Source: Bacteroidota bacterium (GTDB lineage Bacteria > Bacteroidota > Bacteroidia > Bacteroidales > Prolixibacteraceae). Taken from it: 64,000 bases of DNA. Below, one piece after another: positions 7,884-12,447 of this stretch. The stretch is taken from contig JAJRSD010000016.1 of the NCBI GenBank assembly GCA_024278975.1, forward strand, positions 1 to 64,000, in the 5' to 3' direction. The number at the start of each line of letters is the position of its first letter. Positions within the stretch are counted from its first letter, which is position 1. The notes below the pieces were generated by a model. That model ran no database searches and was not told where the DNA came from. It was given only the letters and a program-made list of their open reading frames with translations. The position numbers and the translations under genes were made by a program.

Positions 7884-8584
7884 CTATTTGTTTTTTATAC
7901 TTTTTATTGTCATATCAAAATCTGATAAATATTTTTTGTCTTGTTTTACTCTGAATTTCTCGTATTCTTTTATTGCTAATTCTGTAGCTACTGCTCTCGA
8001 TATTTTCCCTTTGTTATTCAAAATTTCTTCTTCGTTAAATTGTAAAAAACTTTTCTGTTTCTAATGTATCAACCGAATAATTGACCGAAGTGGCATAAAT
8101 ATCAGTTATTTTCTGATAAACCATTCGTTCGCTTGCTCGTATTTCTCTAATCTCTTCGAGCAATTCGTCGAAAAAACGAGTATCGAACCGACTACCTTTT
8201 GTAAATCGTTCTTTGTCTATGGTGAAACCTTTAAAAATGTAATTCTTTAATTTATCGGTTGCCCAAGTTCTAAATTGCGTTCCTCTATTAGTATTTACAC
8301 GATAACCAACCGCAATAATAGCCTCCAAAGAATAGTGTTTTGTTTTATATTTTTTACCGTCAGATGCAGTTACCGAGTAATACTCGACAACTGAATTTTT
8401 ATCTAATTCGCCTTCTTTAAAAATGTTTTTTTAGATGTAACGAAATATTATCGGTGCTACACTCAAACAGCTCTGCCATTAGTTTTTGTGTAAGCCACAA
8501 ATTATCAGCATCAAAATAAACATCTATCTTTATTTCTCCGTCTTCGGTTTTGTATAGTAGTATTTATGAGTTGTTTTCTTGCAT
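7884..8584 (-). pseudogene. RhuM family protein, decayed
   Basis: Conceptual translation from the ATG at 8584 gives a RhuM-like protein (LLYKTEDGEIKIDVYFD...LWLTQKLMAELFECS, then the longest open part 8035-8328 with AIIAVGYRVNTNRGTQFRTWA). It is interrupted by an in-frame TAA at 8564-8566 (codon 7), a frameshift in a T7 run at 8426-8432, and a second in an A6 run at 8044-8049. After correction it ends at TAG 7884-7886. The ATG overlaps the stop of the restriction enzyme gene (TGATG), so it was its operon partner. RhuM-like genes often accompany restriction systems; their biochemical role is unknown. Confidence 0.8.
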
Positions 8585-11500
8585 CACACAGCACCCTCCA
8601 CAATTTTAATTTCATCTTCTGTTAAGCCATAAAGCTCATAAACCATTTGGTCTATCTCTTTATCAGTCTTTTCTATTTCGGCTTTTAAGGTTTGGGCTTC
8701 GGCTTTTTTCTCTTCAAAAAGCTCCATCCATTCCATTTCGTCTTTCTTAGTCAGTTTTTCGCCACTTGCTTTTTTTATTGCTTTATTTAGCTCTTTTATA
8801 AAGTCTGCAAATTCTAATTCGTGCCAATTTTGTAGTTTTTTGCTTAGCTTTTCTATGCTGTATTGTGATTGTAGGTATTTTGTAAATTTACCTAATATTG
8901 ATTGCATTTGAGTTTTATTTTTCAACATTAGGTCAGTAAAATATTCAAATTTTTCATTATCAATATCCTTAAAGTTTGGTATAGAAAAAGGTTCTAATAC
9001 TTTCCTTTTTACACCTATATAACCACCTCTGAGAATGTTTCCTGTATTTGATAAATAAAACCAAAAAAGAGAGCTATTGATTATTGGAAGTATTGATTTG
9101 TAGGTGTAATTAGTATCTTCTTTTAAAAGTAAAGTATGACATTTGCTATTATGGTAAAAATTATTTTCATCATAAGTCATACTGCCTCCAAAACAAACTT
9201 CTGGTGTAATAATCTTAGGCTGTTCTAATACTGATATAGCTTGGTTTCTACTGTATTGATACCAATGTTTGTTATTATACTTTCCTTTTTCTCGTTCTCT
9301 TAATATATTCTCATATACTTTTAAGTATTCAAGTGTATTTGGATATTTAGCTTCAATAATTTCAGGTTCTATCAATTCAGCTTTTCCATTAATTAATTGG
9401 TATGGAAATATTAACCATTCATTATTTTCTAAATGGCGAAATTTATTTACATCTTCTCCCCTTAAATGAGGTTTAAGGATGCCTTTTTCTATTTTATGAA
9501 TATTTCCATTCTCATCTGTAATATTTAAAAAGTTACCATCTATATTGCCTTTAATACAAAATACAGCGTCTTTCCCAGTTATAATGCCTTGAACAAATCT
9601 TGAAAAAATATCTTTTAGTTTTAATGGTTGAAATTGTATTTTTGTAAGAATATCACCAATTATTTTATCTGTTAATATCCATTGTTCACTATTTAACAAC
9701 GAATACGGTACTTTGCTAAATAAGTTAATATCAAATAATTGCGATGGCTTTAAATGTTTAAAGTTAATATCTTTTTTTTGTTCTTTTGTTAAGTTAATTA
9801 TGCAAGTATATGTAGAAGCATCATCGAAAACCATTTCTGAACCAAAATGAATTAATTCTGATACAGCCACATTATCAACAAAAAATTGTCTTATACCAAT
9901 GCCAAAATCTGAAATTAAGAATTTATGAGGAAGAATAAATGAAACAATTCCATTTTGGCTTATCAATGAAAATGACTTCTCCAAAAATAATGCGTATATA
10001 TCATAATTTCCCGTTGCAGAATTAAATGTTCTTTCGTAAAATACTGTTTGTTCAAAATAATGCTCTTTTAAACTCTGCATTCTCACATAAGGTGGATTAC
10101 CAATAACAACATCAAAGCCACCATTATATTCGGTACGGAATGCCTGTTCTTTGGTGCATAGAAATTCTTTTTTTAGTTTTTCTATTTCGCTACTTTTAGG
10201 AAGTTCGTGCTTTACACGGTTATTTCGGATATATTCTATTGCATTATTTAGGTAGTTTTCGTCTTTTATTTCGGATTTTCCGAACTTTTGCGTCCAGAGA
10301 GAATTATATTTTTTCTTTTCTTTTTTCGCATCGGTATCGGTACCGGACAAGGGGACATGTACCCTTGTTGTGCTAGTAGCACTCGTAGCAGTAGAAGGTA
10401 TCGTTATTCCTTTTTCGATATTATATTTCCTGCTACTTACAGCTTTTAGCTTTCCTACTATTCTATCTCTATCTTCTTCATCACATACCAGTAGTAGATG
10501 CATATGGTCGCCGCATATATTATACTCGATTATGTCAATGGGATATATCCCATTATTATCAAACTTGCTTTCTTTTACTATTTTGGCAATAGTTTCAGTT
10601 ATTATTATTTCATCTTTTTCATCTAACCATATAGCTTCACCTTTTTTTACATAATTATCATACATTCGTTGCGAATATCTCGAATTATGTGTTGCTGTGG
10701 TTATATGCCACGCTTTCTTCGTTTTTTTTGTGAAAATATGCGGAAATTCTTCTTGCCAATTAAAAACTTTATCTCCAGCAACTTTTGGGTCGTCAATTAA
10801 TGAGTTTCCACATTTTATATTGTCGTTTAATGTATTCAGCTTTCTACGTGGTTGGGCGGTGCGTAACCATAGCGAAAGTTTTGCAATTTCAACACTCTCT
10901 TCGTTTAAATCAACCCCAAAAATATTGTTTTCTAAAATAGTATTTTCTATGTTTTGAAAAACTATTCCGCCACCAAAAAGCGAAGTTTCCAACTCGTCAA
11001 TGTAAGTATGTTCTTTTATAAGAAAATCTAATGCTTGATTTAAAAAAGCACCAGAGCCACAGGCAGGGTCCAGAATTGTAAGGGTTAAAAGCCAATTGCG
11101 GTAATCGTCAAGTTTAGTTTTTAGAGCTTTTAATATCTCCTTTTTTCGTCCTTTTCGGCTTTTATGATATTCGGCTTCTGTTATTTCAAGTTCTTGCTTT
11201 TTTTCTTTACAAAGTTTACCAATTGTATTATCTACAATGTATTTGGTAATATACTTTGGTGTATAAAAAACACCGTCTTTTTTTCGTTTTGTTTTTTGCT
11301 TGTCAAATTCTGTCCCCTCAATTTCGGCATTTACGCTTTCAATTTCGTTTAGCGAGTTTTCAAAAATGTGCCCAAGAATATTTACACCTACTTGGCTTTC
11401 AAAATCGTAATCGGAAAGTGTTTTTGTATGTTTGTAAAGTACTTGGTTGTCAAGTATTAAACTGTCAAGAATAGGGTCAGGCTTAAACAAACCACCGTTA

Positions 11501-12447
11501 TATGCAAAAATTTCAGCTTTTTTATTAGTTCCTTTACGACCTTTGTCAAGGTATTTAAAATAGAGTTTAAATCTATCGTATAAAGGAATATCTGTGTCTA
11601 AGTCATTGAGTTTATCCCAATCTTTTAATATTCTAAGCGTTGAATTTGGCGGTAATAAGCCTTTGTCTTCTGCGAAAAAGATAAACAGAAAACGGTCAAT
11701 CAATTTTTGAGATTTCTTGAAGAGTGCAAGTTTTATATTCTTTGTTGCTCTGTCTTTATCTTCTTTTTGTAGTTCGTTTCTAAATATTTCGTTATTAAGA
11801 TTTTGTTTTACCAAATCTCTAAAAAGTTCTCTTTTAAATTGCGAATAATCTGAATAAAACTTTTTAGTGATACTTTCTTCTGCTACAACACTATCGGTTT
11901 TTATTTTTAGAGGAACATTGTTTAGTATATTTTCTTTGTGCAGACATAAATACAGTAATTCAAATTGTTCTTCGTTCAGAGTAAATAAATTAAACTCTTC
12001 AAAATCTACTGCATTATTTATGTAAAACCTAAGTTTCTCAAAATTAGAGGTAATCACATAAACACAAGCACTTTGATTTACTTTGTAGTCAAATGCTTGT
12101 TGCCTTATTCTTTCAAGGTCTTTTGTTTTGGTGCTTTTCAGTTCGATTACAGCTAACGCTTTACCATCTTTCAGTATTGCACCGTCTGCTTTTTTTGCTC
12201 CTTTTTCGTTTTTTAATTCTGTCGTAAGGTTAAATTGTGGTTTGGGATTTAAAGTATAATCAAACACTTTCACAAAAAGTTCACGCAAAAATCCTTCTTG
12301 AAATTGTTCTTCTTTACTTTCTCGAATGTTTTCTTGTATTTCAGGATTGTGAAAGTATTCAGCATATTTTTTAAACGCCTTGTCAACTTCTTTTGTGTTT
12401 TGAAGTTTCAAGTATTTTTTTAAAACAGATGTCTGAAATAATCCCAT
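8584..12447 (-). CDS. Type IIG restriction-modification enzyme (Eco57I-like) with embedded HUH/Y1 transposase-like domain
   Basis: This 1287-residue single-chain enzyme should both cut and methylate DNA. The N-terminal PD-(D/E)XK nuclease has D88 and E102-L-K104. A helical linker leads to the methyltransferase: SAM motif I DPACGSGAF (460-468), GVDLNEESVEIAKLSLW (511-527) and catalytic NPPYVRM (784-790). The C-terminal third (about 870-1230) is the target-recognition and helical region, ending in coiled coil. Unusually, about residues 580-770, just before NPPY, contain a RAYT/IS200-like insertion: HITTATHNSR, HUH motif H648-M-H650, then WTQKF...DENY and EYIRNNRVKH with candidate catalytic Y739. 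The linker between HUH and tyrosine is low-complexity (residues 684-713) and encoded by palindromic DNA. The stop overlaps the start of a decayed RhuM gene. Confidence 0.93.
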   Translation of the reverse strand: MGLFQTSVLKKYLKLQNTKEVDKAFKKYAEYFHNPEIQENIRESKEEQFQEGFLRELFVKVFDYTLNPKPQFNLTTELKNEKGAKKADGAILKDGKALAVIELKSTKTKDLERIRQQAFDYKVNQSACVYVITSNFEKLRFYINNAVDFEEFNLFTLNEEQFELLYLCLHKENILNNVPLKIKTDSVVAEESITKKFYSDYSQFKRELFRDLVKQNLNNEIFRNELQKEDKDRATKNIKLALFKKSQKLIDRFLFIFFAEDKGLLPPNSTLRILKDWDKLNDLDTDIPLYDRFKLYFKYLDKGRKGTNKKAEIFAYNGGLFKPDPILDSLILDNQVLYKHTKTLSDYDFESQVGVNILGHIFENSLNEIESVNAEIEGTEFDKQKTKRKKDGVFYTPKYITKYIVDNTIGKLCKEKKQELEITEAEYHKSRKGRKKEILKALKTKLDDYRNWLLTLTILDPACGSGAFLNQALDFLIKEHTYIDELETSLFGGGIVFQNIENTILENNIFGVDLNEESVEIAKLSLWLRTAQPRRKLNTLNDNIKCGNSLIDDPKVAGDKVFNWQEEFPHIFTKKTKKAWHITTATHNSRYSQRMYDNYVKKGEAIWLDEKDEIIITETIAKIVKESKFDNNGIYPIDIIEYNICGDHMHLLLVCDEEDRDRIVGKLKAVSSRKYNIEKGITIPSTATSATSTTRVHVPLSGTDTDAKKEKKKYNSLWTQKFGKSEIKDENYLNNAIEYIRNNRVKHELPKSSEIEKLKKEFLCTKEQAFRTEYNGGFDVVIGNPPYVRMQSLKEHYFEQTVFYERTFNSATGNYDIYALFLEKSFSLISQNGIVSFILPHKFLISDFGIGIRQFFVDNVAVSELIHFGSEMVFDDASTYTCIINLTKEQKKDINFKHLKPSQLFDINLFSKVPYSLLNSEQWILTDKIIGDILTKIQFQPLKLKDIFSRFVQGIITGKDAVFCIKGNIDGNFLNITDENGNIHKIEKGILKPHLRGEDVNKFRHLENNEWLIFPYQLINGKAELIEPEIIEAKYPNTLEYLKVYENILREREKGKYNNKHWYQYSRNQAISVLEQPKIITPEVCFGGSMTYDENNFYHNSKCHTLLLKEDTNYTYKSILPIINSSLFWFYLSNTGNILRGGYIGVKRKVLEPFSIPNFKDIDNEKFEYFTDLMLKNKTQMQSILGKFTKYLQSQYSIEKLSKKLQNWHELEFADFIKELNKAIKKASGEKLTKKDEMEWMELFEEKKAEAQTLKAEIEKTDKEIDQMVYELYGLTEDEIKIVEGAV
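10347..10368. repeat. REP-like palindrome inside the restriction enzyme gene
   Basis: A 22-bp imperfect palindrome (ACAAGGG, centre ACATGT, then CCCTTGT; one mismatched pair) lies in frame within the HUH-domain linker (about residues 694-701). It is flanked by GGTATCGGTACC-type and GTGCTAGTAGCAC (10370-10382) inverted repeats. The translation is low complexity, so the DNA structure rather than the peptide looks constrained. Confidence 0.7.

Follow-up and report, generated by a model that had tools for sequence, protein, structure and literature searches.

The seemingly closest described relatives of the element treated here are the TnpA-REP proteins of subclass 2.4, i.e. group 4 of the RAYTs (tyrosine transposases associated with repetitive extragenic palindromes, REPs). 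They occur in Bacteroidetes as stand-alone proteins with an HUH-Y core and a highly variable loop between the HuH and Y motifs, and their genes carry REPs in-frame between these two motifs (PMC6006769). TnpA transposases of the IS200/IS605 family act as dimers and move insertion sequences with terminal hairpins (PMC6006769). REPs are also known from within other genes, as intragenic REPs and Rickettsia palindromic elements are short palindromes spread over various protein genes, some of them in-frame (PMC3733652). The first of these sources raises the upkeep of RAYTs and the spread of REP palindromes as a question and dropped unexpectedly long proteins from its survey as fusions or annotation errors. 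In a stretch of 64,000 nucleotides from a Bacteroidota genome (contig JAJRSD010000016.1; hereafter the window) we found a RAYT-like Y1/HUH domain, complete by appearance, nested within a type IIG restriction-modification enzyme that is otherwise complete as well, and on the basis of sequence comparisons we consider it likely that this domain seeds palindromes mainly in its own gene. The domain shares with subclass 2.4 the HUH-Y core, the variable loop, the occurrence in Bacteroidetes and REP-like palindromes in-frame between the HuH and Y motifs, and differs from it by residing in a type IIG enzyme and by palindromes which also lie in the surrounding enzyme. In contrast to the intragenic REPs and Rickettsia elements, the palindromes are concentrated in the gene of their probable mobiliser. 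Nowhere in the accessible literature searched (mostly open-access, with few subscription papers and no preprints) is a RAYT described as part of a restriction enzyme.

The nested Y1/HUH domain and its host enzyme

A preliminary description of the window, made from its letters, had read the gene as a type IIG enzyme with a RAYT/IS200-type nuclease nested in its methyltransferase, and both assignments are upheld. The intact open reading frame (ORF) on the minus strand matches the Pfam profiles Eco57I (6e-43), MmeI_Mtase and TaqI_C, and the PADLOC model REase_MTase_IIG (2e-296, with aa 1–575 as best stretch; aa, amino acids). Nuclease, N6-methyltransferase and TaqI-like specificity domain are combined in one chain, the nuclease part being indicated by the PADLOC model and a sub-threshold HSDR_N_2 match, and follow each other in the same order as in Eco57I-like type IIG enzymes, to which the window enzyme belongs as judged from its sequence. 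Its ADGAI...VIELK region presumably serves nuclease catalysis, and DPACGSGAF and NPPY are taken to be the S-adenosylmethionine (SAM) motif and the catalytic motif of the methyltransferase, respectively.

The domain is in-frame and sits after the SAM motif, within the methyltransferase loop that directly precedes NPPY; its span is somewhat wider than the previously given residues 580–770. Pfam Y1_Tnp scores 29.3 bits against a curated cut-off of 23 and matches all 17 inserts submitted (E ≤ 1); NCBIfam NF047646 (REP_Tyr_transpos) reaches 4.9e-11, with 42.7 bits below its whole-protein cut-off of 80. The AlphaFold2 (AF2) model of the domain (model residue 1 = aa 577) has a predicted HUH-type, ferredoxin-like fold with a core pLDDT (predicted local distance difference test) of ca. 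90. A fold search with this model returned Y1 transposases in all of its top 16 VIA-align rows, IS608 TnpA and TnpA-REP being nearest. A larger model of the domain together with the surrounding methyltransferase (aa 389–893) was poor (pLDDT 63, predicted template modelling score 0.41).

The positions of H648, H650, Y739 and N743 are conserved in 24/24 copies nested in type IIG genes (22 aligned genes plus G651 and G576; genomes, contigs and loci are denoted by G, C and L numbers). The motif numbering of the preliminary description is correct, as is its statement that the key residues are kept and the domain is not obviously decayed; it overlooked N743 as a further conserved catalytic position. 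This residue, at Y+4, corresponds to the third metal ligand, N119, of TnpA-REP (PMC6006769), whereas the Y motif of IS200/IS605 TnpA proteins (IS608, ISDra2) has Gln at Y+4. E. coli TnpA-REP (PDB 4ER8) shares 18% identity with the domain, has a different target sequence and no host enzyme. In a profile scan RAYTs of the YIHNNP type outscored IS200 types, and in a quick tree the insert family formed its own group with loci L029 and L202 (Shimodaira-Hasegawa-like approximate likelihood ratio support 85; proteins were obtained for 27 of 35 loci, and L207 is represented by a wrong frame with a long branch).

Homologues with and without the insertion were both found. Those without it, present in many of the genomes searched, are 54–68% identical over aa 1–572, and unlike the window enzyme most of those examined pass directly from an EFPEIFA-like stretch (EFPEIF) into GGFDVVIGNPPY; with close homologues devoid of the domain and a clean junction, the view that it is an ordinary part of all such methyltransferases was rejected. 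The insert boundaries are precise at the protein level. Three type IIG relatives, G059, G053:C138 and G000:C81 of the own genome (loci L070, L083 and L086/L165, the last being G000:C81), carry a different segment at the same site, by reading helical and perhaps coiled-coil, which shows the loop before NPPY to be permissive.

Table 1. Location of the type IIG gene, its motifs and its palindromes in the window.
Feature	Position	Strand	Basis
Type IIG restriction-modification gene with nested Y1/HUH domain	8584..12447	-	Intact ORF, 1287 aa
PD-(D/E)xK-like nuclease motif region, ADGAI...VIELK, aa 87–104	12136..12189	-	HSDR_N_2 match below cut-off
Methyltransferase SAM motif DPACGSGAF, aa 460–468	11044..11070	-	Motif position
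Nested Y1/HUH (RAYT-like) domain, aa 579–774, AWHITT 579 to FRTEY 774	10126..10713	-	Y1_Tnp, REP_Tyr_transpos, AF2 model and fold search; missing in insert-less homologues with clean junction
Decayed palindrome ATAATGGGATATATCCCATTGA	10535..10556	.	Seen as 8-residue insertion FDNNGIYP common to the G022 copy and the L032 fragment; position hand-derived
HUH motif H648-M649-H650	10498..10506	-	HxH in 24/24 domain-bearing type IIG genes
Disordered loop, aa 685–713, with palindrome-encoded peptide	10309..10395	-	Model pLDDT <50
22-bp palindrome, coding strand ACAAGGGTACATGTCCCCTTGT, one mismatch from perfect form	10347..10368	.	Predicted translation TRVHVPL in disordered domain loop
Predicted catalytic tyrosine Y739	10231..10233	-	Kept in 24/24
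N743 at Y+4, position of third metal ligand	10219..10221	-	Kept in 24/24
Methyltransferase catalytic motif NPPY, aa 784–787	10087..10098	-	Motif position
TaqI-like C-terminal specificity domain, aa 993–1154	8986..9471	-	Pfam PF12950, 2.5e-8

At least 24 distinct type IIG genes carry the domain, all at the same site, including a second gene in the 4.65-Mb genome of the window and the distant enzyme G651 (L199; ca. 30% identical, first 175 residues unmatched), where it likewise precedes NPPY. At least three copies are apparently stand-alone (L029, L202 and G549); this status is firm for L029, located between frames resembling thymidylate synthase and dihydrofolate reductase, as in L202 the first strand is missing and the G549 copy is divided between contig ends. 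The contig-end fragment L032/G463 was counted in neither group, and G080, G456, G622 and G767, duplicates of G462, G052, G461 and G458 at the same contig places, were counted once. Carriers amount to at least 7 of 61 relatives and, in two scans of 395 genomes, to at least 9 (3 weak matches to ordinary stand-alone RAYTs) and at least 12 (5 weak), lower bounds in that mostly 8 candidates per genome were scored. One viral search yielded no domain relatives among 76 pattern-matched stretches, and a plasmid search matched 594 records, all below 60% identity, 20 of them listed. Contig C7 of the own genome (L007, 1000–1875) encodes a RAYT-like protein (291 aa) that stands alone and in which several near-identical GVGVSNSNNPQGA-like repeats precede the HUH motif.

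Palindromes in domain-bearing genes and genomes

The window palindrome in the domain loop had, like the second domain-bearing gene, escaped the preliminary description. Its class commonly reads ACAAGGG-N8-CCCTTGT and is near-perfect over 22 bp; palindromes of this kind in the DNA of the loop that separates the HUH half from the Tyr half give rise to the loop peptides TRGHVPLS, EHAPS, NKGFKPLV etc. The window palindrome was matched in 0/100 shuffles. The own genome contains two copies within 3 mismatches, one per domain-bearing gene, with none in the reversed control, and a high-copy REP of this genome was rejected on account of this number. Both window palindromes are imperfect (9/10 pairs each); folded as single-stranded DNA, the window copy forms a hairpin of −5.7 kcal/mol, weakly better than shuffles (z −1.5), and the stretch around the C105 copy gives z −4.6. 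Arm covariation was left unused because the palindromes had been chosen for pairing.

With a criterion of at least 9/10 pairs and at least 9/14 template bases, REP-like palindromes are present in 21 of 22 aligned insert-bearing type IIG genes (in the insert of 19 and in the body of 12), in 2 of 4 insert-less genes from genomes having the domain, and in none of 10 insert-less genes from nine genomes without a domain match. The sole exception among the 22 is G256, whose loop holds a palindrome of another kind that may be a chance occurrence; the truncated gene of G033 (two palindromes, insert region not covered) was kept outside these counts and those of the perfect palindromes below. The insert-bearing genes (75 kb) contain perfect 20-bp palindromes at 35 positions, of which 24 fall in the insert. 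Each of five codon shuffles gave none, the four insert-less genes of carrier genomes have 1, and the 10 control genes (31 kb) have none. Many perfect palindromes have different arm sequences, and body and loop palindromes within one gene are more alike than those of different genes (p 0.0003, 10 genes). Certain body sites are used repeatedly, near reference positions 95, 219, 360–366, 413 and 996, and in several homologues a palindrome is inserted at the nuclease-motif region. Single gains are visible between sister genes: G461 has 7 additional residues relative to G462 at AIL/IELK, and G458 has 7 relative to the window gene.

On the genome scale, the exact class was found in 8 of 61 genomes, namely in 5 of the 7 carriers of the domain (8 copies, each within the domain-bearing gene) and in 3 of 54 without a domain match (G033, in the truncated type IIG gene; G024, two copies; G042, one imperfect copy); the reversed pattern matched in 1 of 61. 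Among nine genomes reached through loci, six hold 8 copies, all in the domain-bearing gene or a fragment of it, two hold none, and G458, the metagenome-assembled genome of Vicingaceae bacterium KA17, holds 33. Of these 33 copies, 26 lie outside and 7 inside retained ORFs. The domain-bearing type IIG gene accounts for three of the 7 and a C-terminal type IIG fragment for one; the other three lie in-frame, one per ORF, in frames identified by reading as methionyl-tRNA synthetase-like, BioF-like and MsrA-like (L128, L143, L151). The BioF-like frame also contains further QGDMSPC-like repeats.

The near confinement of the palindrome to the domain-bearing gene in most carrier genomes, and its ability to fold as a hairpin, would also suit an autoregulatory role, in which the domain, bound to palindromes of the gene or mRNA that encodes it, would tune a potentially toxic restriction enzyme without any transposition. 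We regard this as quite improbable, as the palindrome sites vary between homologues and lie far inside the coding region, and as the 33 copies of G458 are scattered, some of them within other genes. The palindromes might alternatively stem from another, e.g. phage- or IS-borne, mobile system unrelated to the Y1 domain. In two viral contigs of Mu-like-phage appearance (L035; L036–L037; IMG/VR 3300010330_000057, 3300022552_000049) ACAAGGGGACATGTCCCCTTGT recurs several times, both outside long frames and in-frame within one transposase-like and one head-protein-like ORF; these contigs and G024, with palindromes and no detected domain, speak for such an origin. It nevertheless seems very improbable, since palindrome presence tracks the domain across genes and genomes, and since of the six Y1_Tnp loci in G458 none but the fused one has a palindrome of this kind in the flanking sequence examined. 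G461 has no Y1_Tnp match apart from the fused domain.

Movement of the domain between genes and selection

Apart from the probable seeding of palindromes, the domain itself has moved. The body and the insert tell different histories: the window gene and G022 are 62% identical in the body and 85% in the insert, G008 and G020_C12 84% and 48%, and G008 and G020_C82 62% and 80%, the two identities correlating overall at 0.60. On a body tree of 35 rows, which leaves out G017_C30 and G033, the insert label requires 11 changes, a number not below that of shuffled labels (mean 11.3), and well-supported branches force at least 9 of them. In approximately unbiased (AU) tests, insert-tree clades are rejected on the body (p 1.4e-88 for G008+G020_C82 and 5.5e-6 for window+G022) and body-derived groups on the insert (p 1.6e-56 for G008+G020_C12 and 7.5e-5 for window+G458+G461), p-values which are indicative only because the groups were picked after seeing the identity conflicts. 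The synonymous divergence (dS) is lower in the insert than in the body for window–G022 (0.54 vs 2.5), C105–G020_C12 (0.43 vs 1.07), G008–G020_C82 (1.25 vs 2.36) and G086–G114 (0.11 vs 0.48); several values are near saturation, and for two further pairs the body value was not computable. The ratio of nonsynonymous to synonymous divergence (dN/dS) of the insert is 0.06–0.26 across eight pairs. Taken together, these identity and tree conflicts, the dS pattern and the low dN/dS indicate that the domain passes from gene to gene and is maintained at the protein level; by these comparisons it moves independently between type IIG genes. Homologous recombination and transposition are both possible routes. 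G008 has a CATG-type palindrome in the body, as several body relatives do, and a GTTAAC type in the insert, as its insert relative G020_C82 does, which may reflect a replacement of its domain, although G029, the relative nearest to it in the body, is devoid of insert and palindrome.

The suggestion of a mobile passenger tolerated in frame, put forward in the preliminary description, agrees in its first half with the tree conflict, the stand-alone copies, the clean empty sites and the associated palindromes; its second half falls short, as the low dN/dS shows that the module is maintained and not just tolerated. An inert passenger, i.e. a fossil domain that no longer cuts DNA and whose palindromes are old scars, might be read from the imperfect window palindromes and from several carrier genes that look broken. 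It is rather improbable in view of the catalytic positions kept in all 24 nested copies, the low dN/dS, the many perfect palindromes with different arm sequences and the gain of a palindrome in one of two sisters (G461 vs G462, G458 vs window). The same low dN/dS, together with 24 copies at one site in type IIG genes as opposed to three apparently stand-alone ones, could fit a domesticated defence module, in which the Y1 domain would widen or trigger restriction by its host enzyme through nicking or sensing the hairpins and single-stranded intermediates that incoming DNA forms. This appears unlikely: insert-less homologues in many genomes do without the domain, and the sensing of hairpins or single-stranded incoming DNA, as initially proposed, is unsupported, the association being with palindromes in the domain's own gene.

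Proposed mechanism and neighbouring features

Returning to the reading of a nested RAYT-like domain that seeds palindromes mainly in its own gene, we propose the following scenario: The domain would bind the hairpin formed by the palindrome in single-stranded DNA and cut it through Y739 with the HUH-bound metal, whereupon the hairpin would be rejoined elsewhere. Copies would spread mostly in cis, to the own gene and paralogous type IIG genes and at times over the whole genome, and would persist where the reading frame stays open and in surface loops, there presumably being translated as short peptides such as TRGHVPL and NKGFKPLV. The domain itself changes its host gene, perhaps chiefly by recombination between the conserved flanks of type IIG genes, and would profit from residing in a gene with frequent transfer and little chance of loss. 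No coupling of restriction and nicking is needed for this.

A further step, which we regard as possible rather than probable, would be to view restriction enzyme and REP transposase as one composite selfish unit: an active enzyme would make the gene hard to lose, the nested transposase would seed palindromes in gene and paralogues, and conserved flanks and shared palindromes would let the transposase domain pass between type IIG genes. Such a unit would amount to a mobile element that resides in a defence enzyme as one of its translated domains and does without splicing. The case also shows that a whole catalytic domain is tradable between restriction enzymes at one permissive loop with, unlike an intein, no known exit from the protein. 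As the probable mobiliser and the palindrome share a single reading frame, and as the gene has sisters free of the insert, the spread, the cis preference and the cost can be put to a direct test.

Several points weigh against the preferred reading of a nested RAYT-like domain that seeds its palindromes. The domain looks as if it works like a RAYT close to subclass 2.4, but it is not filed there, because three features given for the subclass (PMC6006769) deviate: the HuH motif is DH[MLVA]H (24/24) instead of NH[IFV]H, the Y motif is YIxxNRxKH in 21 of 22 (YIDNNHLKH in G256; YINNNRFKH and YIEDNKVKH in two more) instead of YIxNNP, and the palindrome starts with ACAA instead of the REP foot GT[AG]G. 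The nicking activity of the domain and cutting and methylation by the enzyme are putative. All type IIG copies occupy one site, which a purely selfish element does not need, and the carrier frames in G114, G458 and G461 end 34, 72 and 106 residues past NPPY and look broken, while stops lie within the matched stretches of G052_C8 and G017_C30. The exact palindrome class is dispersed in G458 only, with 0 to 2 copies in every other domain-bearing genome searched by pattern (besides the own genome, the 7 of the 61-genome set and 8 of the 9 reached through loci, one a repeat; G086, G106, G114, G256, G549, G576, G651 and G727 lie outside this search). The insert-less genes G000_C81 and G052_C325 of domain-bearing genomes have no palindrome in the gene; the 2.2-Mb genome G024, without a Y1_Tnp match, has two identical palindromes ACAAGGGGATTAATCCCCTTGT near contig ends (L156, L157); and the two viral contigs hold several palindromes, with no domain copy found in the one viral search. 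Finally, dS is higher in the insert than in the body for G457_C5–C14 (2.29 vs 1.72) and G022–C105 (1.07 vs 0.75).

The C-terminal halves of the type IIG genes past NPPY (8584–10086 in the window, and homologues) look swapped between genes, with ca. 30% mean identity even where the N-terminal halves share 80–90%. That the insert drives such specificity swapping is unsupported: the C-terminal halves average 23–34% identity in every pair class, with or without insert, a low identity also found where the N-terminal halves are 80–90% identical. Just downstream of the type IIG gene, at 8035–8328 on the minus strand, a 97-aa fragment of the RhuM family (PF13310, 6.8e-40) covers profile positions 27–120 of 252, and the gene looks broken.
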